The translations under genes were made by a program, and so were the position numbers. Positions 16,291 through 63,439 of a stretch of DNA of 64,000 nucleotides are shown in pieces (the first letter of the stretch is position 1; every line of letters starts with the position of its first letter). Under the pieces are notes generated by a model. It was not told where the DNA came from. It worked only from the letters and a program-made list of their open reading frames with translations, and ran no database searches. This DNA comes from Anarhynchus alexandrinus (taxonomy: Eukaryota > Chordata > Aves > Charadriiformes > Charadriidae). Where the stretch lies: NCBI GenBank assembly GCA_008711295.1, contig VUYV01000187.1, positions 1,813,087 to 1,877,086 on the forward strand, read 5' to 3'.

Positions 16291-16975
16291 ATCTCCTCCT
16301 GGTCCAAATCCCCAAAACATGGGGCTGGGGAGGAATTCCTTGCCCACCCCCTGCACCCTCGGTCCCACCTCGCACCCCTGCCTCCCCCAAATCCCTGCAC
16401 AAAGCACCTGCCCCCATAGCACCAGTGGGTCTTTGCCCATCCAGGACCCACCAAAGGGACAAAACAGGGGCTGTGACACCAAGCCCTGTCCCCTGCTGTC
16501 TTCCCCCCTCTCTCCGGCTGCATTTCTTTCCCCCCACTGCAGTCCCCAGCCCCTTTCTTCCCATATATTTGAGGCAGGACAAAACTCATAACAGCAGTGA
16601 CTCTGCTCCCGGTCACTCATGGGGCTTCAGACCCAGATCAGCGTCACAGCAGAGACAGGCAGGAGCTCAAGCCACAGCAGCCGCTTTTATTTTTGTAATC
16701 TTTAACCCTTTTTTGCCAAACATTTCCACCCGGGCAACCCCATCCCTGTCCCAGGGTGCCCCCCAGCCGGTGGCAGGGCCTGGGGCACCCCCACAAAAGC
16801 CGGTCCCCATCTTGAGTTCCTCTAGATGTCACCCTCAGCCGTCTTTTCACCGGCCTCGGATTTTCCTTTCTTCAAAATCCTGCATTTTTTTTTTTTTTTT
16901 TTTTTAAATTCCTTTCTGCTCTCTTTCCGGCCATGTGTGATTGCAGTTTCCTCTGGGCGTCCATTTCATCAGCCC
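16291..16975. other. Non-coding upstream flank with T21 tract
   Basis: No gene recognised. A 21-base T run spans 16885-16905. Confidence 0.55.
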
Positions 16976-17669
16976 GAAATTAAGAAGCGGAGGAGAGGGG
17001 CGGCGGGCGGCCGGCGGGAGCCTCCCCCCACCCCTTGCCTCCTCCCCAACCACCGCCACCCCAACCCCGCATCCCGCATCCCGCTCCGCCGGGACACCGC
17101 TGCTCCCCGGGTTGGCCGAGCACCCTTCGACACCCCATCGCCGCACCCCATTCCCAACCCCGGCCCCGCTTGGCCCGGAGGCCGGGGAGGGGGGGGGGAG
17201 ATTCGCCACTGCTCAACGCAGCCACCGTCGGTTTTGGGGTGACTTTGCTTTTTTTTTCTGTTGGTTTTTTTTTGGCTGGGTTTTCTCTCCACGCCACCCT
17301 CTTCGCCCGCAAAGGTGCCCCCCGCCATCCTGCAGCGGCCGGATGGTTTTTCTCCCTCCTGGCTCTGAACCGCAAGGCCGTCGCTGCCCGTCTGCTCCCA
17401 CCGCCACTGGATGCCAACGCCGGGGCCGGATTCAGCCTCGGCGAGAAGGTCACAATACCTCCAGCCCACCCTTTTCCTCCCCGCTGTCGCCAAGCCCGGC
17501 TCCGTGCCGTGGCCGTGGTGCGGCGGAGGGGACGTCGGCCGCAGAGGAAACCCACGCCCGGGGCGAGAAGAGAAAATCCCTGGGGAGGTTTCGGCTATTT
17601 GGTTTGTCCTCTCCTGCATGAGACAACCCCGGCTCTGCGGCTCCGCCGGGCTATGGCCACGCAGTGAAG
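16976..17669 (+). promoter_or_regulatory. CpG island promoter / 5' UTR of the PLC-gamma paralogue
   Basis: A strongly CpG- and GC-rich stretch ends at the start codon at 17670. No splice acceptor was needed upstream, so the first coding exon is probably also the first exon. The transcription start is not resolved. Confidence 0.6.
17618..17667 (+). promoter_or_regulatory. Upstream ATGs before the PLC-gamma start
   Basis: ATG at 17653 opens a four-codon frame (ATG GCC ACG CAG TGA) that stops 2 nt before the main ATG at 17670. ATG at 17618 opens a longer frame, offset by one base, that overlaps the main start and stays open to 17893 in genomic sequence. If both lie in the mature 5' UTR they could limit translation of the main frame. 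Confidence 0.55.
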
Positions 17670-17889
17670 ATGTCCGTGGTCAGGCTCAACAGCGTCAATG
17701 GCTTTCTGGAGGACGGCAGGATGGAGGCAGGGGACATGGGCAGGATTCTCCGCTGCCTGGAGATGGGCACCGTCCTCACCTTGTTCTATCAGAAGAAGTC
17801 GCAGAGGCCAGAGCGAAGGACCTTCCAGGTGAAGTTGGAGACCCGGCAGATCATCTGGAGCCGGACGCCCGAGAAGGTGGAAGGGGACA
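17670..17889 (+). CDS. PLC-gamma paralogue exon 1: N-terminus and start of PH domain
   Basis: Residues 1-74. The first 19 or so residues have no counterpart I recognise. From about residue 27, [20 protein letters not shown] aligns with the PH domain start of PLCG1. Donor A|GTGAGT. The start at 17670 is the first ATG in this frame that fits the family length; a second in-frame Met at residue 18 is possible. Confidence 0.9.
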
Positions 17890-20800
17890 GTGAGTATTGG
17901 TGGCAGCAGCGCTCTGGGCTGGGGATGTGCTGGTGGGGTGCCCAGCCGTGGTGGGGTGCCTGGCCGTGGGGTGCCTGCCCACGGTGGCATGTCCTACAAT
18001 GGTGGGATGCCTGGTTGTGGGGTGCCTGGCTGTGGTGGGATGTCCTACCATGGTGGGGTGACTGGTTGTGGGGTGCCTGGTCATGGCAGGAGGTCCTACC
18101 GTGGTGAGGTGCCTGGTTGTGGGGTGCCTGGACATAGTGGCATGTCCTACCATGGTGGGGTGACTGGTTGTGAGGTGCCTAGTTGTGCGGTGCCTGGCTG
18201 CAATGGGATTTCCTACCATGGCAGGATGACTGGTTGTGGGGTGCCTGGCCATGGCAGGAGGTCCTACCGTGGTGGGGTGCCTGGTTGTGGGGTGCCTGGC
18301 CATGGTGGGTAGATCCTACAGTGGTGACGTGCCTGGTGGTGAGGTACCTGGCCATGGTGGCATGTCCTACTGTGGTGGGATGTCCAGCTGCAGTGGGGTG
18401 CCTGGCTATGACATGCCCAGCCATGATGGGGTGCCTGGCAGTGGTATGCCCGTACACAGTGGGGTGGCTGGCTATGGTAGGCTACCTGCTGCAGTGGGGT
18501 GCCTGGACATAGTGGGGTGCCAAGCCATAGCGGGGTGCCTGGCTGCAGTGGGGTGCCCAGCTATGGTGGGTAGCCTGGCCATAGTGGGATCCTGGCCATA
18601 TTTGGATGCCCTGCCATGGTGGGGTCTCTGGCCATGGTGCGTTGCCTGGACATAGCGGTGTGCCCTACCATGGTGGGATGTCCAGTCACGGTGGGATGAT
18701 CTACCATGGTGGGATGCCCTACCGTGGTGGAGTGCCTGGCCATCGTAGGATGCCCAGAGATATAAATGCAGGAGCTGCAGGGCTGAGGAACCTTTGCCTC
18801 CTCCATCGCAGCTCACCTGGGCCATGGGGCTCAAGTTGCTGACATTTCATCCTGGGGTTTCATACCCTCTTTGCCCCATGTGCATTAATGACATCAAAAC
18901 AAAGTTTGGATGGCATCTGAACTGGTGGGGACTGGTGGCACTGGGGTCCGGCACAGGAGCTGCTTCCACTGGAACATCCATAAAAAATCACCCTTCCTTG
19001 TGGCTTTGCTGCTGGCTAGTAGGCTTTTGATGGGTCCATGGGTGGGGCCACATGCCTTGGTGCTCATTAACTGGTTGCTCGTTACCTGGAGACTTGCACC
19101 TCCTCTTAAATTGAGCTAAAAAGAGCCAATGGATGAAAATGCAGAGTTGGGGTGACACAGAGCCATTCCACCACCTCATGCCATGGCCCCATATGAGGAG
19201 GAACCACGTTTGGGGGTATCATCTCACCTGGATGACGGCAAAGCCCACCCTGGAGGTTTGGGAGGCGACAGGTGCCTTTTCCCTAGGAGGTGTCCTTAAA
19301 AGTCACCCTATTACCCACCCCAAAATCACCGCCCATTGCTAATCTTGCACAAGATGGAGCAAAATCCCTTGGAGGGTTCATCTCCCGCTCGGAGGGGCCG
19401 ACCCCAAGCCAGGCTGCTGGCCATGGTGAGGCTTTGAGCTGGGAAGGACGGTGGCAGCCAGAGATGAACATCGTCACGAGCAGGATATGTGCCTGTCCAG
19501 ACCTGCTGGACATGGGAGCAGATTTGTGGGAGGAAGAGGAGGAGGTCCAGGTGAGGGGACGACAGCCACCCATTTTTGGAGAGGTGATTTTGGCCCTCAT
19601 AGGGAAGAGCTCATTCTGCGCTCACGGAAATAACGCTTTTCCGGTGCATTGGTGTTTTTCTGGAGCACCGTGCACCACCGGCTCAGGGTCTCGGTCGCTC
19701 CTGATGCCCTGCCTCAGTTTCCCCATCGGTGCCTTGAGATCTGTCTTCTCCCATGCGATGGCCCAAAACCCCCATGTGGGAATGAGTGGGTATCCTTCGA
19801 GGTCATCCAGAAGGGGGGAAAAAAGAAAAACCCTCTGGAAAGGGTACAATCCTGACATCTAGCCCCACCACCCGCTTCCCCCAGCCCTGGGTGGGAGCGA
19901 TCCCAGTATTGGTTGTGGGCCGGAGCATCTTCACCCCCCGGTCNAGTGGGCCTCTGGAAAAAAAACCCTCTGGAAAAAAAACCCTCTGGAAAGGGTACAA
20001 TCCTGCCATCTAGCCCCACCACCCGCTTCCCCCAGCCCTGGACGGGAGCGATCCCAGTATTGGTTGTGGGCCGGAGCATCTTCACCCCCCGGTCCAGCCC
20101 TGCTCTGTGCTCGCATGTCTTCCCACTCGCCGGGATTTTATGGAAGTGCCGGGATCTCCTATTCATCCCTGGGGTCTCGCTCCCACCCCGCGCCTGACCT
20201 CACGCCTGCCCAGGCCATTTTAAATCCCCCCTCTAAGCAGGCACCCCGCTTGCAGAGGGATTAACGGGGACAACCCACAGTGCTGATGTCTCTATTATGG
20301 ACTGGCAGGGCCAGGACACAGATCCCGGCTCTCCCCGAGATGCCCCGCACCGTGCAGGCTAATTATACGCTTCGTTAAGCAGCCGACGGACGCGTGTCCA
20401 TGCCGATGGGGTCGCCTGTAGCATCACCTCTGAAATTAGCCTCGTCCCAGAGGGTTTCCAGCTCATCGCCCTCGACAGACCCCGGTCCCCAGCGCAAGGA
20501 TGAAATCTAGCGGAAAACAGCCCAATAGGGATCTTCGCAAGAAATTAGAAGAAATAGGAATGGAGGCAGCTTGGCAAACCTGAGAGCATTCCGTGGGGTG
20601 GTTTGCAGCCTGGTTTGCCACAGCGATGGCTAATTGGGATCGTACCTTCAGCTTCACGAACGCCCAATAATTAGAAATAGGACCATTTGGGGAGGAGAAA
20701 ATCCAGACGGGTTTTAACATCGCTGGGCTGGACCCGGAGGAAATCTTTTATTTCAGGTTTTACATCGGCTTCACAACACCATGGGGAGCTCTGGGGGATG

Positions 20801-23800
20801 CGGTCGCCCGATCCCCCCTGTACAGGAGGGTCTGAGCTGCCACGTGTCCTGCAAGAAGGGGTGACCGAGGTGAACATGAGGGAACGTGGCTTATGCCACC
20901 GTAGCTCTGCACGGGCCAGTGGGATTTCACAGCACAACCATTCCCTCCAGCCGCTTTGCTTTGCTTTTCTCCTAATGCATTAAGAAAACTCCCAGGCTCT
21001 CAGCATCCCTAAAAGCCATCGGGCAGAACCTGGTCCTACATCATCTTCCCACCATTTAAAATCTTCTTTGCACCACGCCGCTTGTTTTGCATTAGAAGAG
21101 AAAAGGGATTTTTCGCAGCTGGAACCGACTTCCAGAGTGTTTTAATCGCCCGGGACCCCTGAGACAATGCGGGGAGGAGTTTGGAGACATAGTTCTGACA
21201 TGATCGCTGCAAATCCGCTGCAGATGTGGTTTCCAGGAAGCCGCCATCCGCGTTGCATTGTGTAGCCCCGCGCCGCTCCCTCTTCCCCCGGCTCTTCATG
21301 GGGTCAGGCTATTTGCCCTGAGGAGAAGGACCTGAGGGTGCTGGGGGGTGAAAAGCTGTCCGTGAGCCGGCAACGTGCGCCGGCAGCCCTGAGGAGCCCC
21401 TGGCATCCCGGGCTGCATCCCCAGCAGCGTGGCCAGCAGGGCGAGGGGGGGATTGTGCCCCTCTGCTGCGCTCTGCTCTGCTCTGCTCTGGGGAGACCCC
21501 CCTGCAGTGCTGCCTCCAGCTCAGGGGCCTCAGCACAGCAGAGACATGGACCTGGTGGAGTGGGGCCAGAGGAGGCCCCGGAGATGCTGCGAGGGCTGGA
21601 GCCCCTCTGCTGGGAGGACAGGCTGGGAGAGTTGGGGGGGTTCAGCCTGGAGAAGAGAAGGCTCTGCGGAGACCTCCGAGCCCCTTCCAGTGCCTAAAGG
21701 GGCTCCAGGAGAGCTGGGGAGGGACTCTGGATCAGGGAGTGGAGCCATGGGATGAGGGGGAACGGTTTGACACTGACAGAGGGGAGATTTAGGTTAGATA
21801 TTAGGAAGAAATTCTTGACTGTGAGGGTGGTGAGCCCCTGGCGCAGGTTGCCTAGAGAGGTGGTGGATGCCCCATCCCTGGATGTGTTCAAGGCCAGGTT
21901 GGATGGGGCTTTGAGCAACCTGGTCTGGTGGAAGATGTCCCTGCCCATGGCAGGGGGTTGGACTAGATGGCCTTTAAAAGGTCCCTTCCAACCTAAACCA
22001 TTCTGCGAGTCTGATTATTGGCAGCACCCAGAGGTTGGCTCCGAGGCCGGACTCTGGCAGTGTTGGGTTGAGGGAATGGCTGTGTTGCGACCTGTTGGTG
22101 GAGCCCCGGTAGCCGCTGGCTTCTCACCCCTCTCCAGCGCCCTGCAAACGGGCAGCTTTGGGGATGAGCAGCTGGTCTTTGACCTGTAAACCCACTTTTA
22201 CCCCCAAATATCTGCCTGTTTGTACCAAACTGGGTGTGCTCGGAGCCGTGGGGCCTGCACGCAGACAGCAACAGGATTTCATTTCCTGAGATCCGGTCCC
22301 AAAACAAAGCACACGCAGGGGTACAGACCTCCTGTGTATCATGTGTGCTAAAATCTCACCCTCATCCATGAAATTTGGCTTGCGGTCATCCAGCAAGGGA
22401 AGGCTGGATAAAGCCTCCACTGTTTTCTGGAGCTTTTCCGCCAAGAAAAACTATTCTGCACCTCTTTTCTTGCTTAATCAGCCCGATTTCTCCCCCATCC
22501 CTTATTCCACCCCACGCTCGGCTTTTATTTATCCCCTTTGGTTTAGGCTGAGGGTTTCTGTCGAGGCACCGACATGTCTGCACCCTTCCCCACCGCCACA
22601 TCGGAAACACAGCCGGGCTGGAAATTCTCCGGGAAATGACCCATTTCCTCAGCAGGACAATACTCCGGCGCGGTGGTCCGGCCGCCCTCGGCCGCACAAA
22701 GCCCTTTCCGGTGCTGGCGGCTCAGCTCCGAAGGGCAAAGCTGCCCAGGGGTGATGCTCGTGTTATCGAGAACAACTTTGAGTGTTATTCTGAATATCAT
22801 CATATTATGTTTCTGCTCCCGGCGGGATATGTCCGCTCGGCAAAACCAGGGGTTTGGAAATCTCACCCAGCGGTGTAGTGGTGAGGAAGACCGCGGTCCG
22901 GAAACCCAGCCCTCGCGCTGCCGGCAGAGCTTTATATAGCGAGATGAGAGAGCAGGAAAGAAACGCCCTGTGGTCTGGGCTGCCAGGGCTCCAAATTGCC
23001 ACCTTTGGGGTAGACGTCTTCAATTAAAAGATGAGCTCAGCTTGGCCCGGAGCAGGGTCTGTCTTGGGGAGGAGAAGGCAGGGGAGAAGTGGCTGGAGAT
23101 GTGCTGGTTGGGACGGGGCAGGCTGAGCCTGGAGGACACGTGGCACCCACAAAGCAGGGAAACCAGTGGGCAGCACTGTGGGGATGCCACATCCTGGGGA
23201 CACGAGATCCTGGAGGACACACACATCTGGGGGCAGTGCTACAGGGACACGCCATCCTGGGGACGTGGCTCCCTGGAGGACACATGGACCCAGCACCCAT
23301 GGTGTTGTGAAGCAGCTGCAGCAGCGTTACAGGAACACCCGATCCTGGGGACACAGTTTGCTGGAGGACGCATGGCCATGGCACCCGTGGTGCTGTCACA
23401 CAGCTGCAGCAGTGCTGCGGAGATGTCCTGTCCTGGGGACATGGATCCCTGGAGGACACATGGCCATGGCACCTATGGTGCCATCATGCATCAATGGGCA
23501 GTGCCACAGGGATGCCCCATTCTGGGAACACAGTTTCCTGAAGGACATGCAATATCCATGGTGCCATCACACTAGCAGACACATCACTGGAGGGCAGCAG
23601 GGACATATCTCCCTAGAGGACACATGGCCACAGAACTCACAATATCACATACCCATGGGCAGTGCCATGGGGAAACCCCAGGATGGGGACAAGGCTCCCC
23701 AGAGGGCATATGGTCTCCTGGTAGTCCCACCTCTTGCAGCCTCCCTGAGCCCCACACGTGGGTCCATGGTAGCAGGGTGTCTGGGGACAGTCTCATGTCT

Positions 23801-26800
23801 CTCTCTCCCCACAGTCGACATTCGGGAAATCAAGGAGATCCGCCTGGGGAAGAACTCACGGGACTTCGAGCGCTACCCTGAGGACGCTCGCAAGCTTGAC
23901 TTCACCATGTGCTTCATCATCCTCTACGGGATGGACTTCAGGCTGCGGACGCTCAGCGTGGCTGGTGTGTGGACTCCCTCCCCGGTCCCTCAACCACCCT
24001 TGGGTTCTCATTCCCTCCCCAGCATCCTATCTCCCCCATCCCAACCTCACCACCCTCCTCTTTCTCCTCCAGCTTTCTGTGAGGAGGACATCAACCTGTG
24101 GATAACGGGCCTCAACTGGCTGGTGGCGGACACCCAGAAAGCCCAGACCCCGCTGCAGATCGAGAGGTGAGGAAGGACCAGTGGGTCCTGTTTCCCAGTC
24201 CCCATCTGGGGGTCTGGGGGACAAACACCCACCCTTGAGACTGACCACCATCTGTCCATCACTTCCTTACCAGGTGGCTGCGGAAACAGTTTGATGGGAT
24301 GGACCGGTCACGGGAAGGCAGGTGAGCCCTGACATGGCCCCGTGCTGGGAAGTGGACGGTGGGTTCAGCTGGACAGGGCCGTATCCCCGCAGTTTCACCC
24401 CAAATCTGGAGGCTGAGCTGGCCTGGGAGTGGGGGTGGTGGGACAAGGTTCCCAAAATAACAATCAGGTTATTTTGGATGCTCAAAGGCACCAAAAATCA
24501 GAGACTCAAGTGCAGGTCCCCTCCTCAACACTGTAGGGACCATGGGGACCCCGATGCTCCCATGCCCACTGCTGCATTTCCACCAGTGCCAGGAGGGGCT
24601 GGACCATAAATGCAGCCCATAAACGTCTCTCCAAGACAGGAAAAACCTGAAATCAAGTGAATTTGGACTTAAATCATAGAATCATAGACTGGTTTAGGTT
24701 GGAAGGGACCTTGAAGATCATCTAGTTCCAATTCCTCTGCCCTGGGCAGGGACACCTCCCACCAGACCAGGTTGCTCAAAGCCCTGTCCAGCCTGGCCTT
24801 GAACACCTCCAGGGATGGGGCAGTCACAACTTCTCTGGGCAACCATGATTATGGGGATGGGGATGGGCATCGTCTCCACATAGGATGATGACTTAGAGCA
24901 CCCGGTTGGTTCCCAGACATGCTCTCTCTGCCTGACCCTCTGCTCACACTTGCATCAAACCCCATGTAATTAGGGGTCCTGTGCCCCTGCGGGGGTCCAC
25001 AGCCCAGTAGGGTGGGAGTCACACACCAGAAACCATGCTGGCACCAGTATTTGGGGTTGGCAACCTTGGGGTCGGGAGCTGTGACCCATCTGGGAGTTAT
25101 CCATCCTCTGTGGGGTCTGGCTGGTGCCCTGACACCGGCTCACCCTCCCACAGCATCACGGTGAAGGACCTGAAGGCCATGCTGCCCCAGGTGAACTACC
25201 GCGTCCCCAACATGAGGTTCCTGCGGGACAAGCTCGTGGTAAGGACCCCCCCAGGCACCCCAACTACACAGGGAGAGGTTCTTTGAGCCCCTGCAGCGGG
25301 GCTGAAGCCAGCCCTGGTGTCGCTGGCTCTGGTTGGGTGGCCCCGCTCCCATGCATCACCTTCTCCGGCAGGAGGTGGAAGCCAGGAACGAGATGACTTT
25401 CTCCCACTTCATCCAGTTCTACAAAAACCTGATGTTTGATGCACAGAAGTCGGTAAGAACCATGTCTTGTTTTCCCAAGCATCCCCTGCCCGGTGCAGCG
25501 TGTCCCCGGCCAGCTAAACCTGGTCCCCTCCTTTGCCTTGCAGGTCATTGAGCAGCTGGAGCTCTCCTTCCCCTTGAGGTGAGTACCCAGGAGCCCCCCA
25601 GCTCCCATCCCAGCCAAGCCTCCGAGGGTTGGATCCATTGGGAGGGCAATGCAGCGGGGCCGTGGGGCAGACCCTGAGGAGAGCAGAGGGTCCGGGTGGT
25701 GCGTGTGGCGCCGGAGCATCTCCCAGCATTGGTTACGCCGAGCCTGGGGCAGGGTTGGGGTGTCAGGGATGGTGGGGATGGCAAGGGTGGTCTGAGGGGC
25801 TGGGATGGGAGCAGGGAATGGGAGCAAGGATGGAAGCTGGGATGGGAGCAGGAATATGAGAGGGTATGCAGCTGAGGGAACTGGGGTGGTTTAGCCTGGA
25901 GAAAAGGAGGCTGAGGGGAGACCTTATCACTCTCTACAGCTACCCGAAAGGAGGTGGTAGCGAGGTGGAGGTCAGTCTCTCCTCCCAAGTAATAGGTGAT
26001 AGGACAAGAGGAAATGGCCTCAAGTGACGCCAGGGGAGGTTTAGGTTGGATATTAGGAGAAATTTCTTCACCGAAAGAGTTGTCAAGCACTGGAAGACGC
26101 TGCCCGGGGAAGTGGTGGAGTCACCATCCCTGGAGGTATCTAAAGGACATGTAGATGTGGTGCTGAGGGACATGGTTTAGTGGTGGACTTGGCAGTGCCA
26201 GGTTAATGGTTGGACTCGATGGTCCAACCATCAAGGTCTCTTCCAGCCACAATGATTCTATGATTCTGTGGGAGTGGGGATGGGAGCAAGGGAGGGGGTG
26301 TGGAGGGGGATGAGAGCAAGGATGGGAGCAGGGATGAGAGCGGGTATGGGAGTGGGAATGGCAGTAAGGATGGGAGCAGGGATGAGCAGGGATGGGAGAG
26401 GGGATGGAAGCAGGGATGGAAGCGGGGATGGGAGTAGGGATGGGTGCCAGAGATGTAGGGACATGGTGATTCTACGATTCTATGACACTCTGCCCTCATC
26501 CCCGTATCCTCGGGCAATGCTGCACGCTTCGGCTGTGTGCCCACCTCTCCCAGCTCGCAGGGACATGGTGACACTGGGAGTGTTTGCTCTAGCAGCACCC
26601 AACAGCTCGAGGTGCCCCTTGCACCCCCATGGCCTGCGCTTTCCCTGAGCCCCTTGCCAGCCACCACACTGGGACCCATCAAGGGGCTAGTGGATGTTGG
26701 TGGCCTCGATTCCCCCACGGGGTCTACCCCAACTCTTACTCCCTGGTCCTTCCTGACGGCCCCTCCGTGCTCCAGGAATGTGGACCGTCCCGAGCTGTGC

Positions 26801-29800
26801 CAAGTCTCCCTCTACGACTTCCAGAAGTTCCTGCTGCATGACCAGAAGGTGGGTGCCCTTAGAGACCCCCGTGGCATCACTCTCAGCCCCAACCCATGGG
26901 ATACCCTGGCCCGGTTCCCCCCATAACGGCAGCCATGTTTGCACCCCAGGAACCCTGGGCCAGCGACGTGGGCATGGTGCGGGACTACATGTGCACCTAC
27001 CTCAAGGAGGGCTCCAGCGAGGCAGCAGATCCCTCTTTCCAGCTGGATGAGGTGGGTGACTGCATGTGGCACCCACCCAGGGTGTCACCCCAGCTCTGGC
27101 AGGCTCTGACCTCTCTGCTTCCCCCCTAGTTCCTCACGTACCTCTTCTCCAAGGAGAACATGGTGATGGATGCCAAGTATGAGCGCGTGGTGCCCGAGGA
27201 GATGAACCACCCCCTGTCCCAGTACTGGATCTCCTCCTCCCACAACACGTAAGGACAGGATGGGCTCTCCTCAGGGACCTCCATGAGCATCCCATCAACC
27301 CAGCCGGGGCAGCTTTGGCCACTAATGGTCCTTCTCATTCTCCACAGGTACCTGACAGGGGACCAGTTCTCCAGCGAGTCCTCCCTGGAGGCGTACGCCC
27401 GCTGCCTGCGCATGGGCTGCCGCTGCATCGAGCGTGAGTCCACCCCAGCACCATGCAGAGATGCTGATCCCCTCCCCAGCATCCTGTGTCACATCAGATG
27501 ACCATCCCATGTACCCATCCCATGGCACCGGGGGAGGGGGGGGGCGGGGATCTTCCATGTCCTTTGGGGGCTTGAAAACAGTGCGCAGTCGGTAACCAGC
27601 ATGTGTTAACCAAGGTGTCTCCCCACTCAGTGGACTGCTGGGATGGCCCAGACGATCTCCCTATCATCTACCATGGCCACACACTCACCTCCAAGATCAA
27701 GTTCCTGGATGTGCTGCACACCATCAAGGAGCATGCATTCGTAACCTCCGAGTAAGCCCCAGCCCCCCAAGTGACACCCCAGTTCTGGGCCAGGCAGGCA
27801 ACCTCTCCTTTGCCTTCGTCCCAAGCCACCATTCCCACCTGCTTCCTCCAGGTTCCCCATCATCCTCTCCATCGAAGACCACTGCAGCATCGTCCAGCAG
27901 AGGAACATGGCCTCCCACTTCAAGAAGGTCTTTGGGGACATGCTACTCACCAAGCCCGTAGACATCAATGCTGATGAGCTGCCCTCACCCACCCAGCTGA
28001 AGAAGAAGATCCTAATCAAGGTGTGGAGTGGGCACCACCCCAAAGCCCCTCTTTGTGGGAGGGACAAGGACCATGTTGGGCTGGAAGGGATGGTGATTAT
28101 CCCAAATCTTGGGACTCAAGAGCAATATCTTTCTGTGCCTGCGCAGTAGGACATCGGAGAGATGTCCTACTGCAAGAGACTGTCAAGGGGAACAGGGGGT
28201 GGTGGAAGGAAACTTTTAGGAGCTCAAGTGTGGCCTGAGGGCTGGGAGCTCAGCATGATGGGGACACCATACCCACTGCTGAGCTCCCCTGACTGGGCTG
28301 TCCCCAGCACAAGAAACTGGTCGAAGGGAACCTGTACGAGGAAGTCTCTACTGCCAGTTACTCAGAGAACGACATCAGCAACTCCATCAAGAATGGCATC
28401 CTCTACCTTGAAGATCCCATCGATCACGTAAGGGTCTCCCTGCTGATGGCAGCCAGGGTCCACGTAGGGTCTGTTGGATGGGGATGAGCATTGGGGTTTG
28501 GATTGGGCATGGGGCATGGGCTCTCCTAGACCATTGCAATGGCATGGGAGGGTGGGCCAGGGGCAGAAACAGAGGTCTCAAAGCCCATCCCTCCATGCCA
28601 CCATCCTGCCCATCTTGATGATGCTCTTCTTCCCTCCCAGACCTGGAGCCCCCATTATTTTGTCCTGACAAGCAACAAGATCTACTACTCGGAGGAGACA
28701 TCCCGCTACCAGTTCAACGAGGATGAGGAGGAGGTGGAGCAGAAGGAGGTGTGTGCGGAGCGGGATGTGCCCATGGGGTGGTGGGGAACGCTAACCCTGA
28801 GGGCATCTCTCCCATTTTGGGGTGAACTTGCAGGAGTTCAACAATAACGAGCTGCACTTCACGGAGAAGTGGTTCCACGGGAAGCTGGGAGGTGGCCGTG
28901 ATGGACGGCAGATTGCCGAGAAGCTGCTGCACGAGTACTGCACCGAGACAGGCGGCAAGGATGGCACCTTCCTGGTGCGCGAGAGCGAGACCTTCGTGGG
29001 CGACTACACCCTCTCTTTCTGGTAGGAGCCCCGGGGGGGATGGCAGGATCCCACCCTCCCCGAGCCAGTCTGGGCATCCCACCGGAGGTCCAGCTGATCC
29101 CCTGTTTGGTGGCTGGAATGGTGTTTTGGGGGGGGAAACGCCACCTTTTTGCATGGCACATGAACCCCTGAACATGGGATGGTGGGGATGTGGACCCGAA
29201 TTGACTCACTCCTGCCTTCTCCCCACCACCATGGCAGGAGGTCCAGCCGGGTGCAGCACTGCCGGATCCACTCGCGGCAGGAAGCCGGCGCTACCAAGTT
29301 CTACCTGACGGACAACCTGGTCTTCGACAGCCTCTACAGCCTCATCTGCCACTACCGAGAGGTGCCACTCCGCTGCAATGAGTTTGAGATGCGCCTCACC
29401 GACCCCGTCCCCCAACCCAATGCCCACGAGAGCAAAGAGTGAGGATGATCCCCATCCCCTTGTTTCCCTGGGTCCACCAGCCTCCTCCATCCCTGGTGTC
29501 AGGTCTTGGGTGCCTCCCAGGGCATGGGGATGCCGGCGCCATCCCACCGCCTCCATTCTCTGCCCGGCCAGGTGGTACCACGCCAGCTTGACCCGCCTGC
29601 AGGCCGAGCACATGCTGATGCGGGTCCCGCGGGACGGAGCATTCTTGGTGCGCAAGCGCAGTGAACCCAACTCTTACGCCATCTCCTTCCGGTGAGTGTG
29701 GCCACCCCGGCACCCCGAGGCTCGTTGGGCTTGGCCACGTTGCCCACATTGCCGGCCAAGCTGAGAACTGCCTGGTTCGTATCTGTTGTGACTCCATGCT

Positions 29801-32800
29801 GGGTAGCAGGAGCTTGCTCTGGGTCAGCAGGGTGACATGGTGGGACGCGTGATGCTGTCACAGTGGGGAAACCCTAGCTGCAGCGATGGGAAAGCCATGT
29901 CCTCAGCGTAGTCACCCTGTTGGCAAGTCTACTGGAGCAGGGCATCACCTCCTGCCCATCCCCACCATGGTGCCAGGGTCTGGCCACCCCTCACATATCC
30001 CTTCCTCTGGCTCTCTTGGCTCCAGGGCAGAGGGGAAGATCAAGCACTGCCGCATCCAGCAGGAAGGTCGGCTCTTCATGCTGGGAAGCTCAGCTGAGTT
30101 CGAGAGCCTCGTGGACCTCGTCAGCTACTATGAGAAGCACCCGCTCTACCGCAAGATGAAGCTGCGCTACCCCATCAACGAGGAGACCCTGGAGAAGATG
30201 GGCACCACTGTGAGTGCTGCTGGCAGTGGGGATCGGGGAGACAGGGGCTCTGTGCCATGGGCAACCCATTCCCATCCCCAGCTCCACGATGGTGGGAAGG
30301 TCTCCTCCAACCTCTTGGGTGAAGCCCAACCAGAACCAGCCAAGCTCGTTCCACAAGCTTGTTGGCCCAGCTATAGCTCCACCATAATTACCTTCCAATG
30401 AGTTGCAAAGGGATATTAGGTCCCTCTCAACATTGATGTGATCACACATGGTGGCCTGGATCCCACCACATCCCCTTGTGGCCCCTGCCGCATCTGGGTG
30501 ACCCACTCAGGCATTTCTCCTTGCAGGAGCTGGACTATGGAGCCCTGTACGAGGTGCGGACTCCCCACTTCTACGTAGAGGCCAACAAGATGCCAATGGC
30601 CAGGGTAAGGGGCCAAGCTGGTGTCCCTGGGAAGTGGAGGGTGGTGGGACATAGCGAATCTAGTGCTGGGGTTCCTGGACAGGGTCCCCCCAGACCGACC
30701 ACATCTCCCACCACCGACCTGATAAGTGGTGACGTTTTACTGCATTTTTCTGACCCTCGAGTGATGCTGGAGCTGGTAGGACCTTTCCTGCCTCCCCATC
30801 ACTTGGGGACAGTCTGAGTTCCACCAACAGCATCATCTGGAGAGAGCCCAGCCTAGAGCAAGGACCTGGCAAAAGTTTGCCCCAACAGTGAGGAAACCTC
30901 CGTGGGTCCCTTTGCATTGGGGAACCCTGAAAGAGTGGGCTTAGGGTCAGTTCCCAGGCAGTGGAGTCTCCATCCTCAGAGGTTTTTGGGTCTTGGCTAA
31001 TCTTGGAGCTGACCCAATCTCCATCCTCAGAGGTTTTTGGGACCAGGCTGGTCTTAGAGCTGGCCCATTCTTCATCCTCAGAGGTTTTCAGGACTGGGCT
31101 GGTATTGGAGCTGACCCAGTCTCCATCTTCGGAGGTTTTTGGGACCAGACTGGTCTCAGAGCTGACCCTGGAGGAGGCTGAACTGGAGCTCCAAGGTTCC
31201 TTCCCTGTGATCCTACAATCCCATGGTCCAGCACTGCTGTGTCTTAAAGGTCCCTTTGCAGCAGAGCAGCTCTCAGGCTAAGACTAGACACTGGAAAGCT
31301 TAAACCAAAGAGTTTTTTCCCAGGGAATGTGGTAATATCGGGGGATTAATCCCTTCAGTGCACCAGGAGAAACCATTGGGGGACCCAGAAGAGGAACCTG
31401 CTTTGCGCTGAGCATGGTGGTCCCACAGGACCGCAGCTCTCCTGTCCCCTCTAACATGTCTCACTGCTGGTGTAGGCGATTTTGGGATATCATTTGGGGT
31501 GTCAAACCATGAGGAGCTCCCACACTCCACCATGGGAGTTGAAGGAGCTGGGCTGAGCAGGCAACACTGCTCACTGGCATCCCTTGCGCTGGGTGGTGAC
31601 ACGTGTCCCTCTCCTTGGTGGCCCAGTGCACAGTGAAAGCTCTCTACGACTACAAAGCGCAGCGGGAGGATGAGCTGTCATTCTGCAAGCAGGCCATCAT
31701 CCACAACGTCGACAAGCAAGACGGCGGCTGGTGAGGGCGGTTGGGTGGTCCCTGGGTGGGCATCGCCATGGGTGGGGGGTGGCGGGGACACCCCGGGTTT
31801 TTCCCGCGGGTTGTCCTGCGGTGGGTTTTAACTGCCTCCTTTTCTGTCCCCCCACCCCCAACCCCTTCTCCCACCGCTCCCTGACATTGCATGCAGCATG
31901 AACACCCCGTTCCCCCCCCAAATTTGTCCGCTTGCCTTGATCCTCTCACCCCTTGCAGGTGGCGGGGGGACTACGGGGGCAAGAAGCAACTGTGGTTCCC
32001 AGCCAACTACGTGGAGGAGATCGTCAGCACGCAAGCGCAGGAGCAGGATGAGGCCGTGAGTGCCCTGTCCCCATACACCCCAGGACCAAGGCTGCCCGAC
32101 ATGCTCCCACCCTTCCACCAACCTGGAACCTTTTCTGGAAGCTGGAGGATATTCCCAGCCCCACTCCAGCCCGGACCATTATCCAGAGGCTGGGGGATGC
32201 TCCTGGCCACATACCAGCCTGGAACCTTATCCAGAGCTTGGGTTCATGGTCCTGCTCCAGCCCAGACCCTTATCTGGAAGCTGAGGGATGCTCCTGGGCC
32301 CGTGTCATTCCAGACCCTGATCCAGAGGCTGGGGGATGCTCATGCTTCTTTTAGGAAGAAGTTTTTCACTTTGAGGGTGGTGAGGCACTGGCACAGGTTG
32401 CCCGGAGAGGTTGTTGAGGTCCCATCCCTCGAGGTGTTCAAGGCCAGGCTGGACGTGGCCTTGGGCAACCTGGTCTAGTGGGAGGTGTCCCTGTCCATGG
32501 CAGGGGGGTTGGAACTCGATGATCTTCAAGGTCCTTTCCANNNNNNNNNNNNNNNNNNNNNNNNNNNNNNNNNNNNNNNNNNNNNNNNNNNNNNNNNNNN
32601 NNNNNNNNNNNNNNNNNNNNNNNNNNNNNNNNNNNNNNNNNNNNNNNNNNNNNNNNNNNNNNNNNNNNNNNNNNNNNNNNNNNNNNNNNNNNNNNNNNNN
32701 NNNNNNNNNNNNNNNNNNNNNNNNNNNNNNNNNNNNNNNNNNNNNNNNNNNNNNNNNNNNNNNNNNNNNNNNNNNNNNNNNNNNNNNNNNNNNNNNNNNN

Positions 32801-35800
32801 NNNNNNNNNNNNNNNNNNNNNNNNNNNNNNNNNATGCTCATGGTCCTGCTCCAGTCTGGACCCTTATTTGGAGGCTGGGGGATGCTCCTGGCCCCGTGTC
32901 ATTCCAGACCCTTATCCAGAGGCTGGGGGATGCTCATGGTCCTGCTCCAGTCTGGACCCTTATTCGGAGGCTGGGGGATGCTTCTGGCCCCACACCAGCC
33001 CAGACCCTTACGCGGAGGCTGGGGAATGCTCAACCACGGAGCAGAGCCTGCCAAGAGGGTGTTTTTTTTCTCTGCTTTTGCTCAGACTTAGAGGATTTGG
33101 AGGGCTGGAGGGGGGCTGCCAAATGGAGTGGGCACCAGGCTCGGCCCCACATGCCTCCCCCACCACCCCTTCTTCCTTCTTCTCTTGCAGTCATCGGAAA
33201 ACAGCCCCCTGGGGAACTTCTTGAAGGGCTTCATCGACGTGCCGTCCTGCCACGTCGGTGAGTGTCGCCACCACCACGACCCCGCTGTAGCTGCGGGGAA
33301 CCCGCTGGGGCGGCGCGCACCCCACGCTTAAGCTCAGTGCCGTGAGCTGAGGCTCCCCAAACTCATCACACGATTGCCAGCTGGGCTCATGCTTGGCACA
33401 GCGTGCTGGGGAGCAACATGAGGCTGGGTTTGGAGGGATTTGGTTGATTTTGGGGGGGAATTCAGAGGAATTTGGAGTTCTGGGTGATTCAGGGAATATT
33501 TACCTCTGGCTGCAAGGAAAATGCATTTCAGCGTGGAAAGCTGAAACCATTCATTAGAAAAATGGGATCCTCACAAGAAGAGGACCCCAATGGCTGGTGG
33601 GGTGCCGGGGGGGGTGGTTGTTGGGGGCCAGGGAGCGGGACCGCTGAGGTTTCGTTTGCTCCACAGAGCCATCCATTGGGAATGTCTTCAAGTAAAGCCC
33701 CCCTCTGATGTCCTTATAGTTATCTCCAAAGACGGGAGGAGCTCCAAACCATTTGTCTTCACCATCCATTCCCAGCAGATGTCCCACGCAGCCCAGTCAC
33801 TGGACGTGGCCGCGGACACGCAGGAGGAACTCAGCGAGTGGGTGGCCAAGATCCGAGAGGCCACGCAGAACGCCGACGCCAGGGTGAGGGATGCCAGGGT
33901 GACGGGCACCGTGGTGTATAGGATGGGGGTGGACAGTCCCATCCCCCAGTGGATGGTCCCCAACATCTCCAACAGAAGGAGGCTGGGGGGAGACTTTCAG
34001 CTCCTATTTTCCCCTGTGCAGATGCAAGAGGGGAAGATCATGGAGCGGAGGAAGAAGATAGCGCTGGAGCTCTCTGAGTTGGTTGTGTACTGCCGCCCAG
34101 TGCCATTCGATGAGGACAGTAAGAGCTGGAGAAGGGGGGTGATGGGAAGAGATGGGTGGGGGGAACCAAGTGGTCATGGCGGACCAACCTCTGGTCCACT
34201 GGAGAGCCCTGTGTCCTTCCCTGATGGCCACCTTGGTGCTTTCAGAGATTGGGACGGACAAGGCGTGCTACCGGGACATGTCCTCCTTCCCGGAGACCAA
34301 GGCGGAGAAGTATGCCAACCGCAGCAAGGGCAAGAAGTTCCTGCAGTACAACCGGCGCCAGCTCAGCCGCATCTACCCCAAAGGGCAGCGCCTGGACTCC
34401 TCCAACTATGACCCGTTGCCCATGTGGATCTGCGGTAGCCAACTCGTGGCCCTCAACTTCCAGACGCCCGGTAAATCTTGCTCCTGGGGTGGTTGCTGGA
34501 CTCATCACTGCAGGTCACCCCAAAATTCCCATCCCTGGTGTCTCTGCTCTGGGTCCTGTTGCTGGAGGTGGTTTGGATGAACACTCCAACCTTTGTCCTC
34601 ATCCTTACGGGGACATCTCCATGCAATTCCTGGGTGCTTCATGCAAAACCCAGGTGCATCCCTTCTCCGACCAGGGTTGGAGGTTCTTAGTAAGGGGTTT
34701 GCCAGGGCAGGACCTTCTGCTCAAGGACCTTGGGGAGGTCCCTGAGGCCCACGGCTCAGAGCTGCTCTGTTCCCATGGCCACAGACAAGCCAATGCAGCT
34801 GAACCAGGCGCTCTTCATGCTCGGTGGCCGCAGCGGCTACGTCCTGCAGCCTGACATCATGAGGGATGAGACGTTCGACCCCTTCGACAAGAACAGTCTG
34901 AAGATTGTGGAGCCCATCACAGTGCAGCTGCAGGCAAGTGGGCGAGGACAGCAAGTCCACCCTGACGTGATCACCATCCAGACGGGGTCTTGCTTATTCC
35001 TCGGTTTTGGGTCAGCGGGGAGTGGTTTTCACATGTTTCAGCCCCACAGTAGCTCCACGGAGATCATTACCCCATGATCTCTTCAGTTTGTTGGTCTTTC
35101 TCCATTTGTGGCATCATTTTTCCAGGGGCAGAACCCCACAATTGCCCAGAGCTGAGCCCAGCCTGAGCAAGAGCAAGGTGGAGGGTAAAGTAGCTAAAAC
35201 AAGCCCAGAAGCACCTTACCTAACCCTTGCATAATTTCAGTGTTAGAGCTGGGACGGGTTGGTTTGTAGACACCTGACTCTCCAGCATGGAATGAATCCA
35301 GAAAAGGTTTTTTAAATAATTTGGTGGATACGGCTAAAATCAAGCTAAAACTAGTCCAAGGTCATAAATAAGGTGTGGTGTGGCTAATCATGGCCATGAA
35401 GCTTTTAGCAAGCCCAAAACACCCCAAATTTTTTACGCTGAGAGTGGTGAAACACTGGCCGAGCTTGCCTGGAGAGGTGGTGGATGCCCCATCCCTGGAA
35501 ACTTTCCAGGCCAGGATGGTCAGGGCTTTGAGCAACCTGGTCCAGTTGAAGTCCCTGCCCATGACAGGGGGTTGAACTAGATGACTTTTAAAGGTCCCTT
35601 CCAACCCAAACCGTTCTATGATTCTAAAATGGCCAAGCCATGGGGTTGCCCCAGAGAGTCCTTCTTCATCCGACGTAGCCAAACCTCACCCTCCTCTTCC
35701 TCCTGCAGATCCTTGGTGCCCGGCACCTACCCAAGAATGGGAGGAGTATCGTGTGCCCCTTCGTGGAGGTGGAGGTGTGCGGCTCCGAGTATGACAACAG

Positions 35801-36243
35801 CAAGAACAAGACAGACGTTGTAGGTGAGGGTTTATGTGGATGATGTTCTCACCCAGCCCCTGTGCCTTAGGACAGTTGGGGACGCCGGGACAACCCTAAC
35901 TGTGCCCTTTGGGGTCCTCTTGGACATATGGGTGATGGGGCTGGTTTTTGTGGAGGAGTGAAGAGGACAGGCATCTCCCACTTACATGCTGGTGCCATGC
36001 CAGTGATGTCCATGTGTCCAGCCCTGCCCTGACCCTCCCTGCTTTCTCCTCACCCCCTAGCTGACAACGGCTTCAACCCCGTCTGGCTCTTCAAGCAGTT
36101 CGTCTTCGACATCAACAACCCTGAGTTTGCCTTCCTCCGCTTCGTGGTGTATGAGGAGGACATGTTCAGTGACCCAAACTTCTTGGCACAAGCCACCTTC
36201 CCCGTCAAGGGCCTCAAAACAGGTATGGTCCCTCCGTCCACAC

Positions 36244-36279
<36 letters not shown>

Positions 36280-36972
36280 AGAATCACAGAATCATAGAAT
36301 GGTTTTGGTTGGAAGGGACCTTTAAAGTTCATCTAGTCCAACCCCTCTGTAATTATCATCATCATCATCACCTCCTTGGGGATCAGGACAGGATGAGGGG
36401 CTCAGACCCTGCCATGGGGCTGAGCTCGTGTTGTGGTGGTGTGTCCAGGCTACCGGTCAGTGCCATTGAAGAACAGCTACACCGAGGACCTGGAGCTCGC
36501 CTCCCTCCTCATCCACATCGAGATCATCAACGCTAAGGCAGGTGGCCCAGGCGGCTTGGGGAACTCTGTGCCTCAGTTTCCCCAGCCGGAGCAAGGAGAA
36601 ACAGCACCCTGGGGTGTCCTGTCCAACCCACCAGCCTCATACCTTTGTGTTGGAACAGGAGGAAGACGAGGAGAACCTCTACTCGTCCATCCAGCAGCTA
36701 CGGGATCGTGCCAGTGAGCTCTCCAGCCAAGTCTCCAGCTACGAGCGCACCAACGGCTGCGACTCCCGCTACCAGCAGCGCCTTGACGAGTTGCGGGCAG
36801 CCCAGGAGCGGCTCATGGAGCTCACCGAAGTCCGCAACCGCAAGTGAGTGTCCCATCCCCGTGGCTTCAGGAGGTCCCTTTCAGGAGGGTCCCTGAGGCC
36901 ACCACCCTGCTCCCTACCAGGTTGATGGAGAAGAAGAAGAGGGACCGGCAGATGGTCACCAAACGCAGTTGA
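17670..36972 (+). CDS. Phospholipase C gamma family paralogue (PLCG1/PLCG2-like), complete
   Basis: Hydrolyses PIP2 to IP3 and diacylglycerol downstream of tyrosine kinases, by family. Coding exons: 17670-17889, 23815-23964, 24073-24166, 24274-24321, 25154-25238, 25372-25452, 25544-25578, 26776-26848, 26950-27051, 27130-27248, 27348-27433, 27631-27751, 27852-28020, 28308-28427, 28641-28748, 28834-29021, 29238-29438, 29572-29691, 30026-30209, 30527-30604, 31627-31730, 31959-32055, 33191-33257, 33720-33883, 34022-34118, 34246-34470, 34785-34933, 35709-35823, 36061-36222, 36449-36537, 36659-36843, 36921-36972. They sum to 3888 nt (1295 residues) with all phases matching. Order: PH, EF hands, X box, split PH around two SH2 and one SH3, Y box, C2, tail. 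Catalytic histidines (334, 379), SH2 arginines (586, 694) and linker tyrosines are present. It is neither a clear PLCG1 nor PLCG2. No disabling change seen. Confidence 0.93.
17922..18765. repeat. Minisatellite in PLC-gamma intron 1, about 840 bp
   Basis: Tandem, degenerate units of ggtgcctggttgtggggtgc and catggtgggatgtcctacca, with a basic period near 18-20 bp and higher-order units of roughly 54-60 bp. It begins about 30 bp after the exon 1 donor. It is open in several frames on both strands, which gives spurious repeat proteins. Confidence 0.9.
18766..19825. other. PLC-gamma intron 1, unique sequence
   Basis: No exon or repeat family recognised. Confidence 0.5.
19826..20094. repeat. Two-copy tandem duplication, about 118 bp each
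   Basis: Copy 1 is 19826-19943 and copy 2 is 19977-20094. They are nearly identical (ccctctggaaagggtacaat through ttcaccccccggtc). The joint at 19944 contains an N and extra copies of aaaaccctctgg, so copy number may be collapsed in the assembly. Confidence 0.9.
20095..21309. other. PLC-gamma intron 1, unique sequence
   Basis: No exon or repeat family recognised on either strand. Confidence 0.5.
21310..22014 (+). mobile_element. CR1 LINE fragment, about 0.7 kb
   Basis: Starts within the second-ORF tail (gaggagaaggacctgagggt) and ends at the CR1 3' terminus near 22014. It contains the same ctctgctgcgctctgctctg segment as the copies at 48050 and 60155, so these belong to one subfamily. Confidence 0.92.
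22015..23119. other. PLC-gamma intron 1, unique sequence
   Basis: No exon recognised. Confidence 0.5.
23120..23700. repeat. Minisatellite in PLC-gamma intron 1
   Basis: Units of about 85-90 bp that share atcctggggacac, ctggaggacaca and catggcacccatggtg. The array ends about 100 bp before exon 2. A 334-codon frame at 23166-24170 is this array read through into exons 2 and 3. Confidence 0.85.
23815..24166 (+). CDS. PLC-gamma paralogue exons 2-3: remainder of N-terminal PH domain
   Basis: Residues 74-155. [20 protein letters not shown] is the family signature in the first PH domain, and exon 3 ends TPLQIER as in PLCG1. Exon 2 donor is G|GTGTGT (phase 1). This PH domain binds inositol phospholipids at the membrane in the family. 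Confidence 0.93.
24274..27051 (+). CDS. PLC-gamma paralogue exons 4-9: EF-hand region
   Basis: Residues 155-296. Includes WLRKQF, the [20 protein letters not shown] helix-loop-helix and [15 protein letters not shown]. Exons 4 (48 nt) and 7 (35 nt) are very short but required by phase on both sides. Introns 4 and 7 hold CR1 copies. The wording is mixed: PNMRFLRDK as in PLCG1, [12 protein letters not shown] closer to PLCG2. Confidence 0.92.
24672..24845 (-). mobile_element. CR1 LINE 3' fragment in PLC-gamma intron 4
   Basis: Reversed CR1 terminus (aatcatagaatcatagactg) followed by about 170 bp of 3' UTR. Confidence 0.9.
25862..26268 (+). mobile_element. CR1 LINE fragment in PLC-gamma intron 7
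   Basis: From ctgagggaactggggtggtt to the terminal atgattctatgattct; 5'-truncated. Confidence 0.92.
26269..26460. repeat. (GGGATGGGAGCA)n-like simple repeat after a CR1 tail
   Basis: About 190 bp of gggatgggagcagggatg variants directly after the CR1 3' terminus. A related short run occurs at 25801-25860 just before the CR1, so the CR1 probably landed inside an existing array. Confidence 0.8.
27130..28020 (+). CDS. PLC-gamma paralogue exons 10-13: catalytic X box
   Basis: Residues 297-461. [20 protein letters not shown] motif (here [16 protein letters not shown]) holds His334, and IIYHGHTL holds His379; these correspond to His335 and His380 of PLCG1. [23 protein letters not shown] core and the LSIEDHCS block are intact, so the enzyme should be active by residue content. 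Confidence 0.96.
28308..28748 (+). CDS. PLC-gamma paralogue exons 14-15: first half of split PH domain
   Basis: Residues 462-537. HKKL start, [20 protein letters not shown] as in PLCG1, then [15 protein letters not shown] and an acidic run ([10 protein letters not shown]). Both exons are phase 0 at each end. Confidence 0.93.
28834..29438 (+). CDS. PLC-gamma paralogue exons 16-17: N-terminal SH2 domain
   Basis: Residues 538-667. KWFHGKL start, phosphotyrosine-binding FLVRES with Arg586, [21 protein letters not shown] and a [12 protein letters not shown] end. In the family this SH2 recruits the enzyme to activated receptors or adaptors. It is mostly PLCG1-like, with [20 protein letters not shown] closer to PLCG2. 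Confidence 0.95.
29572..30209 (+). CDS. PLC-gamma paralogue exons 18-19: C-terminal SH2 domain
   Basis: Residues 667-768. WYHASLTR start, [10 protein letters not shown] with Arg694, [20 protein letters not shown] end. In PLCG1 this SH2 binds the phosphorylated linker tyrosine to relieve autoinhibition; both partners are conserved here. Confidence 0.95.
30527..30604 (+). CDS. PLC-gamma paralogue exon 20: regulatory linker tyrosines
   Basis: Residues 769-794. LDYGALYE gives Tyr772 and FYVEAN gives Tyr784, equivalent to Tyr771 and Tyr783 of PLCG1, the latter being the activating phosphosite. The exon is 78 nt and phase 0 at both ends. Confidence 0.93.
30968..31171. repeat. Four 51-bp tandem repeats in PLC-gamma intron 20
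   Basis: Copies start at 30968, 31019, 31070 and 31121, each beginning ctccatcctcagagg or a close variant. The period is exactly 51 bp, a multiple of three, so the frame stays open and reads as a 17-residue repeat (SPSSEVFG...LELTQ). No matching exon exists in the family. Confidence 0.93.
31627..32055 (+). CDS. PLC-gamma paralogue exons 21-22: SH3 domain
   Basis: Residues 795-861. Typical SH3 landmarks: [17 protein letters not shown] (ALYDY), [17 protein letters not shown] and NYVEEI. It binds proline-rich adaptors in the family. Confidence 0.95.
32345..32540 (+). mobile_element. CR1 LINE 3' fragment, cut by gap
   Basis: CR1 3' region from aggaagaagtttttcacttt to gatcttcaaggtcctttcca, where the Ns begin just before the expected terminus. 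Confidence 0.92.
32541..32833. other. Assembly gap (293 N)
   Basis: N run inside intron 22. No PLC-gamma coding sequence is missing, since exons 22 and 23 join in frame. Confidence 0.97.
33191..33883 (+). CDS. PLC-gamma paralogue exons 23-24: second half of split PH domain
   Basis: Residues 862-938. [17 protein letters not shown] start, then [18 protein letters not shown] and [15 protein letters not shown], as in PLCG1. The exon 24 acceptor is ttatag at 33714-33719. Confidence 0.92.
34022..34933 (+). CDS. PLC-gamma paralogue exons 25-27: catalytic Y box and start of C2
   Basis: Residues 939-1095. [54 protein letters not shown] and [20 protein letters not shown] are near-exact family blocks. 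Exon 27 ends CTGCAG before a GC dinucleotide (GCAAGT), a GC-AG intron. Confidence 0.95.
34934..34935 (+). other. Non-canonical GC splice donor (intron 27)
   Basis: CAG|GCAAGT. Frame and homology (VQLQ then [10 protein letters not shown]) require the junction here; the acceptor at 35707-35708 is a normal AG. Confidence 0.85.
35420..35625 (+). mobile_element. CR1 LINE 3' fragment in PLC-gamma intron 27
   Basis: From accccaaattttttacgctg to ccgttctatgattcta. About 84 bp upstream of the exon 28 acceptor. Confidence 0.92.
35709..36537 (+). CDS. PLC-gamma paralogue exons 28-30: C2 domain
   Basis: Residues 1096-1217. [49 protein letters not shown] and [16 protein letters not shown]. Calcium-dependent membrane binding by family. 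Exon 30 ends GCTAAG before GCAGGT, a second GC-AG intron. Confidence 0.95.
36240..36380. repeat. (ATC)n microsatellite with a small CR1 insert
   Basis: (ATC)n at about 36242-36279 and again near 36355-36371, separated by a reversed CR1 3' end of about 70 bp (36280-36350). It lies in intron 29. Confidence 0.9.
36538..36539 (+). other. Non-canonical GC splice donor (intron 30)
   Basis: AAG|GCAGGT. The nearby GT option (GCAG|GTGGCC) would break the frame into exon 31 ([10 protein letters not shown]), so the GC site is preferred. Confidence 0.78.
36659..36972 (+). CDS. PLC-gamma paralogue exons 31-32: PLCG2-like C-terminal tail
   Basis: Residues 1218-1295. [20 protein letters not shown] starts a charged, heptad-like helix ending in [13 protein letters not shown]. 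The layout (acidic start, LYSS, QLR, basic lysine/arginine end) resembles the PLCG2 tail and not the longer PLCG1 tail. A coiled coil is likely. TGA at 36970-36972. Confidence 0.9.
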
Positions 36973-37942: not shown

Positions 37943-38159
37943 TCTATTTAGCCAATATTTATACCCCGTCGCCGTGGTCTGGTGTCCGTCCTCCCTCCCC
38001 AGCTCTGCCCCCAGCGCTGATGTCCCCAGGGTGGCTGATGTCCCCAGGGTGGTGGCTCGGTGGTCCCAGATCTAGCGTGTCACCCTTGTCCCCATGACAT
38101 GTGTCCCAGCAGCGGTGGGGACACCCAGGCGGTGTGGCGGTGGGCAGGGCCACCCAGGG

Positions 38160-41829: not shown

Positions 41830-41833
41830 GGGA

Positions 41834-63364: not shown

Positions 63365-63439
63365 CTGCGGGGACAGAGCGCAGCGGGTTGTCCCCTGAGC
63401 CACGGTCAGGCTGGAAAGACTGTGACACCCCTCCCCCCC

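Follow-up and report, generated by a model that had tools for sequence, protein, structure and literature searches.

PLC-gamma loci in the genome

The DNA analysed here, a stretch of 64,000 nucleotides from contig VUYV01000187.1 (C187) of Anarhynchus alexandrinus, referred to as the window, carries at positions 17670..36972 of the forward strand a gene of the phospholipase C (PLC)-gamma type, for which we use the provisional name PLCG3. In the spliced model it has 32 coding exons encoding 1295 amino acids, and it is very probably a third PLC-gamma gene that is older than the split between sharks and bony vertebrates. PLC-gamma enzymes relay the signals of growth-factor, T-cell, B-cell and Fc receptors, and to our knowledge the field counts two of them, in agreement with literature listings.

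A genome search returned 45 PLC matches, 23 of them on C187, ten on contig C64, six on contig C7 and six at other PLC-like places. The bird's own PLCG1 (C64) and PLCG2 (C7), whose presence elsewhere in the genome the earlier sequence-only reading had proposed to check, were both found and were pieced together from tblastn matches. The copy on C64 is PLCG1, being identical to human PLCG1 at 1002 of 1150 residues (87.1%) and ending with the PLCG1 tail, and the copy on C7 is PLCG2, identical at 985 of 1035 residues to PLCG2 of Poecile (chickadee). TOP1, searched for with a human query, lies directly upstream of PLCG1 on C64, on the same strand, with a gap of approximately 7.6 kb between its end and the start of the PLCG1 match. 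A large-Maf gene, presumably MAFB, is located on the same contig 0.28 Mb from PLCG1, and TOP1, PLCG1 and MAFB together are what we take to be the gene set of human 20q12. By its locus the window gene is not PLCG1, as TOP1 adjoins the C64 copy and not the window gene.

Two further genes resembling PLC were detected at C66:2769679-2771868 and C43:4332224-4334395. Their open frames encode 862 and 875 amino acids and are 31-41% identical to the query; they presumably resemble PLCL1/PLCL2, in which the coding part is mostly one exon.

Gene model and domain organization of PLCG3

Exons of PLCG3 were located by matching to a database protein and the splice sites were fitted afterwards, with a 35-base exon and one junction placed by eye from the sequence. 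The spliced coding sequence of 3888 nucleotides encodes 1295 residues and a stop, and its exons are free of any N. All 31 introns have an AG acceptor, with a GT donor in 29 cases and a GC donor in two (intron 27, donor after 34933, and intron 30, donor after 36537). Of its 1295 residues the window protein shares 1285 with a sandgrouse protein annotated as 'gamma-1-like' (P0001), and 1224 of 1230 aligned residues agree with a godwit protein (P0002). A pseudogene is ruled out by the reading frame, open over 32 exons, and by the identity to the sandgrouse protein. The GC content at third codon positions is 0.85. A CpG island (16701..17900, scored as observed/expected ratio in 400-base bins) covers exon 1, with ratios of 0.70-0.77 in its three bins versus 0.17-0.33 in the other seven bins of the interval 15501-19500.

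Regarding domain organization, the window protein has the PLC-gamma order of PH domain, EF hands, catalytic X box, split PH domain enclosing the N-terminal SH2 (nSH2), C-terminal SH2 (cSH2) and SH3 domains, catalytic Y box and C2 domain. Pfam places the X box at residues 321-464, SH3 at 798-844, a PH part at 871-932, the Y box at 955-1069 and C2 at 1092-1188, and also matched two SH2 stretches and two PLCG EF-hand models; the N-terminal PH domain is weak (PF16457, score 27.1 against a cut-off of 27). On the forward strand of the window, exon 1 (17670..17889) contains the start codon and the start of the PH domain, and most of the X box, assigned from the model and its key residues, is encoded by exons 10-13 (27130..28020). 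Combining the model with Pfam places the tandem SH2 domains, with the FLVR arginines Arg586 and Arg694, in exons 16-19 (28834..30209), the SH3 domain in exons 21-22 (31627..32055), the Y box in exons 25-27 (34022..34933) and most of C2 in exons 28-29 (35709..36222). The linker between cSH2 and SH3, with Tyr772, Tyr776 and Tyr784, was identified by residue comparison in exon 20 (30527..30604), and the end of C2 together with a composite C-terminal tail, the latter recognized by sequence comparison, in exons 30-32 (36449..36972).

Six catalytic residues are present in the window protein (His334, Asn335, Glu364, Asp366, His379 and Glu413), which we take to be equivalent to H335, N336, E365, D367, H380 and E414 of human PLCG1, and the same six are found in newt, shark and pike. 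The phosphotyrosine-binding arginine is present in both SH2 domains (R586 and R694), as is Y784 of the linker. The three linker tyrosines correspond to Y771, Y775 and Y783 of human PLCG1, of which Y783 is the activating one. The spliced model and the residue comparison bear out the earlier claim of a full-length PLC-gamma of 1295 residues with its catalytic and SH2 key residues.

A run of N at 32541-32833 lies inside intron 22 of PLCG3 and affects no exon; a second run of N in the window is located at 4858-5352. Long minisatellite-like repetitive stretches, with open frames in several phases, occupy 17900-18800 in intron 1 and 38000-39200 downstream of the gene.

Conservation and comparison with PLCG1 and PLCG2

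Between bird and shark, PLCG3 is 86.3% identical and PLCG2 62.5%; between bird and newt the values are 90.4% and 75.7%, respectively, and identities involving the pieced PLCG1 and PLCG2 come out slightly too low, as these sequences include a small number of incorrect residues next to exon boundaries. Because of these pairwise identities, PLCG3 is regarded as slower than PLCG2 and no faster than PLCG1 in the pairs compared. With assumed domain limits, the linker with its three tyrosines is unchanged between bird and shark PLCG3 (34/34), followed by the X box (95.9%), cSH2 (95.6%), the Y box (90.7%) and the tail (81.8%).

Diagnostic alignment columns were defined as those fixed within each group (two PLCG1, five PLCG2 and four third-gene rows) and differing between PLCG1 and PLCG2. 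At the 54 columns of this kind the third gene is PLCG1-like in 40, PLCG2-like in nine and has a residue of its own in five. An assembly chimera of PLCG1 and PLCG2 is ruled out, as the same mixture is also present in shark, newt and pike.

PLCG3 resembles PLCG1 in domain order, in the linker tyrosines and in the second half of the tail (SRYQQ...LR..QE), and under the assumed limits its Y box and cSH2 are 88.1% and 89.9% identical to those of human PLCG1. PLCG1 differs in forming a separate clade, in an overall identity to PLCG3 of 70.2% (human) or 69.6% (the bird's own) and in the first half of the tail, which is unlike that of PLCG3. With PLCG2, PLCG3 shares the domain order, the first half of the tail (EE.ENLYSS..QL, continuing to QLR) and an SH3 domain that is 63.9% identical, but the linker and the split-PH region are quite unlike, and clade and locus are separate. 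The PLCG2-type record P0241, which has no name and is 99% identical to human PLCG2, is 53.8% identical to the window protein. The sequence-only reading had described a mixture of PLCG1 and PLCG2 features, and this stands for the PLCG1-like linker and Y box; the tail, which it had called simply PLCG2-like, is composite. The undivided tail is probably ancestral, with PLCG1 and PLCG2 each having kept one part of it.

Phylogenetic position and taxonomic distribution

A draft of the window protein was searched against approximately 5.8 billion proteins, giving 2543 matches, and the best 120 of these were listed. Named records among the best 120 are from birds, turtles, squamates, amphibians, lungfish, coelacanth, sharks, rays and ray-finned fish; most are called 'gamma-1-like', and some fish records 'gamma-1' outright. 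No readable mammal name occurs among these 120, in which P0069 is nameless, several names are incomplete and cluster members go unnamed. Of the records with missing or incomplete names, five were compared by sequence: two resemble shark proteins (P0025 and P0029), two those of teleosts (P0058 and P0069) and one those of birds (P0048); P0100 is likewise teleost-like. By summed matches each of the best 120 is closest to a reference from the window's clade and none to human PLCG1. When scored by the best single match, three (P0024, P0071 and P0100) were nearer to human PLCG1, their alignments being broken, and the two of them that were put in a tree both grouped with the window protein's clade. 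A loss of PLCG3 in mammals is suggested by the best 120 of 2543 matches, which are not a survey of mammal genomes.

Separate searches provided 120 listed PLCG1 records, of which the named ones are all from mammals, and 120 listed PLCG2-type records ranging from mammals to sharks. Mammal PLCG1 lay outside the clade of window protein and sharks in a fast preliminary tree (55 rows, namely the window protein and 54 picked from the 360 proteins) and again in a mixture-model tree of 32 rows. A further tree, of 21 rows, places PLCG1 of this bird in a group with human and elephant PLCG1 (support 100/100) that leaves out the window protein. The clade of the window protein (100/99) contains sharks, rays, ray-finned fish, lungfish, amphibians and reptiles, and the bird's own PLCG2 joins PLCG2, which the window protein does not. 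Branching within the window's clade is only partly resolved and follows the species tree in outline. A tree had been proposed as the check on whether the protein nests inside avian PLCG1 or PLCG2, and it nests in neither.

Approximately unbiased (AU) and Shimodaira-Hasegawa (SH) tests were run without the bird's own PLCG1, forcing mammal PLCG1 into subsets of the window's clade; the searches for the constrained trees were incomplete, and the differences given here may be somewhat too large. Placing mammal PLCG1 with the amniotes was 55.3 log units worse (AU p 0.0018, SH p 0.095), with the tetrapods 33.6 (AU p 0.0093, SH p 0.295), with the lobe-finned members 23.7 (AU p 0.0083, SH p 0.464) and with all bony members 19.7 (AU p 0.0055, SH p 0.55); by the AU test, placement inside the amniote part or inside the bony-vertebrate part of the clade is rejected. 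Among 35 regrafted trees, the stem position was best and the next was 15 log units worse; these trees share a badly rooted PLCG2 part (an apparent 149 log units or so) and are comparable only among themselves.

The identity to human PLCG1, the 'gamma-1-like' names and the PLCG1-like linker and Y box would also suit an avian PLCG1 that had been relocated, with mammal PLCG1 as its fast-changed orthologue. This explanation is extremely unlikely in view of the trees and the AU test, and PLCG1 at a new address is refuted by the second locus, where the true PLCG1 stands beside TOP1 on C64 with 87.1% identity to its human counterpart. Nor do we give any real credence to a more recent duplication, within birds or reptiles, of PLCG1 or PLCG2: sequence stretches shared with both genes might suggest it, but cartilaginous fish (sharks and rays), ray-finned fish, lungfish and coelacanth all have orthologues, and the shark protein retains the 86.3% identity given above. 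Provided that the records from sharks and fish are correctly assigned, the shark orthologues rule out a lineage-specific duplicate.

The idea of a third gene retained in the lineage of this bird therefore holds for the third paralogue and not for single-lineage retention, as the clade spans birds to sharks, rays and ray-finned fish. The suspicion that databases already hold the gene under a PLCG1-like name was well founded: records named 'PLC gamma-1-like' from birds, reptiles, amphibians, sharks and fish represent the same gene, as orthologues in one clade, and none of those seen names a third gene.

Genes surrounding PLCG3

To the left of PLCG3, the N-terminal part of ZC3H3 was recognized in a large coding open reading frame of 491 amino acids on the reverse strand (1825..3297; tblastn with what we take to be human ZC3H3, E 2.5e-07 and 1.1e-05); the zinc-finger part was not found in the window or in the 20 kb to its left. 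To the right, the recognized open frames of a CYLD-like deubiquitinase gene span 41807..54673 on the forward strand (CYLD in PDB entry 2vhf, E 3.7e-82), and exons of NAPRT lie at 61489..63572 on the reverse strand (PF17767; nicotinate phosphoribosyltransferase 4yub, E 4.1e-71), both PDB matches having been made with joined exon pieces. Both flanking genes named by the sequence-only reading, ZC3H3 and NAPRT, were found, but NAPRT is not the immediate neighbour of PLCG3 because the CYLD-like gene stands between the two. No gene for PLC-gamma or CYLD is known from the human interval between ZC3H3 and NAPRT, and the CYLD-like gene may be, with PLCG3, a second ohnologue at this locus that is absent from mammals. 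A reverse transcriptase fragment (PF00078, E 1.7e-16) was detected on the reverse strand at 53747-54379, within the span of the CYLD-like gene.

Origin of PLCG3

In a search for the topoisomerase-I family, with all 12 of 12 candidates scored, the eight matches were confined to two loci, one on C64 and the other on C187 at 1.300-1.304 Mb, approximately 0.53 Mb from the window gene; two loci are as expected of copies from a whole-genome duplication. Exon identity to the TOP1 query is 59-91% for the C187 copy, and 87-98% with one ragged match of 61% for the C64 copy. The C187 copy is thus the more distant from TOP1, as expected of TOP1MT, which we take to be located at human 8q24.3 with ZC3H3 and MAFA. 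Queries for TOP1 and the Maf bZIP domain gave no match in the window, in the C7 stretch or in the 20 kb to the left of the window. The PLCG3 locus appears to be an 8q24.3-type counterpart to the block of 20q12 type with TOP1, PLCG1 and MAFB, and the TOP1 pair, with one member beside PLCG1 on C64 and the other on C187, backs the earlier proposal of an ohnologue. PLCG3, presumably a functional paralogue, would have separated from PLCG1 before the divergence of sharks from bony vertebrates, and the whole-genome duplications of early vertebrates are its most likely source; taken as a step of its own, origin by whole-genome duplication is considered likely.

Several points weigh against this reading of the gene and its origin. 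The sole non-mammal PLCG1 in the tree is that of the bird itself, which is gapped and covers 1150 of 1291 positions, and the trees have no invertebrate or jawless outgroup, because of which the root of the PLC-gamma tree rests on PLCG2. The SH test rejects none of the four constrained trees (p 0.095 to 0.55), for which the incomplete searches count as well. The TOP1 paralogue on C187 is not adjacent to PLCG3 but 0.53 Mb away, and a Maf_N search found one place only, on C64, with MAFA and MAF not found. Finally, the evidence for PLCG3 consists of genomic and database protein sequence.

A third paralogue that arose by small-scale duplication before the jawed vertebrates, and not by whole-genome duplication, would sit well with the missing MAFA and MAF, with TOP1 as the single further gene pair tested with success and with trees lacking a jawless outgroup. 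It is an unlikely alternative given that the two topoisomerase-I loci fall one on each gene's contig and that, in the human gene order as we assume it, TOP1 and MAFB at 20q12 face TOP1MT and MAFA at 8q24.3 with ZC3H3. With some reserve, we would favour the view that jawed vertebrates began with three PLC-gammas. The slowest-changing of these, whose ancestral tail stayed whole, would still be at work in sharks, fish, amphibians, reptiles and birds and would have disappeared only on the line leading to mammals.

Predicted function and significance

Conserved residues suggest that PLCG3 is capable of catalysis and is coupled to receptors. By homology with PLCG1 and PLCG2, its SH2 pair would dock on phosphotyrosines of active receptors or scaffolds, phosphorylation of Tyr784 by a kinase would make cSH2 release the catalytic core and so lift autoinhibition, and the X/Y barrel would cleave phosphatidylinositol 4,5-bisphosphate (PIP2) to inositol trisphosphate (IP3) and diacylglycerol (DAG), raising calcium and activating protein kinase C (PKC).

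With sequence as the source of the evidence, PLCG3 might alternatively be intact but hardly used, or serve mainly as an adaptor instead of an enzyme. The six conserved catalytic residues, the high bird-shark identity of the X and Y boxes and the CpG island over exon 1 make this very unlikely, as does an annotated gene of the chicken, PLCG1L, that was detected by RNA-seq of breast muscle (PMC10591418) and is linked to PLCG3 by its name only. On that basis PLCG1L is probably the chicken orthologue of PLCG3. The same study counts it among 27 chicken lineage-specific genes (PMC10591418), whereas the PLCG3 clade recovered here includes sharks. If PLCG1L and PLCG3 are the same gene, the gene is expressed and the lineage-specific label is wrong.

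Listings of the open-licence literature yielded no paper naming a third PLC-gamma, and the chicken paper with PLCG1L was the one result that may treat such a gene. As far as searched, PLCG3 is present in databases but unrecognized as a third class. Where 'PLCG1' of chicken, frog or fish has been knocked out, targeted with antibodies or tabulated for expression, the gene concerned may be PLCG3 instead, and comparisons of gene sets can label PLCG3 lineage-specific though sharks have it too. If the interpretation proposed here is true, PLCG1 and PLCG2 of human and mouse are a reduced set, and many results attributed to 'PLCG1' in birds, frogs and fish may stem from a mixture of two genes. Loss in mammals would also offer a natural experiment on the receptor roles that PLCG1 or PLCG2 then took over from PLCG3 and on the tail and linker residues that distinguish the three PLC-gammas. 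As a minor observation, the word PLCG3 occurs once each in three papers, on leukaemia, microglia and oesophageal cancer.

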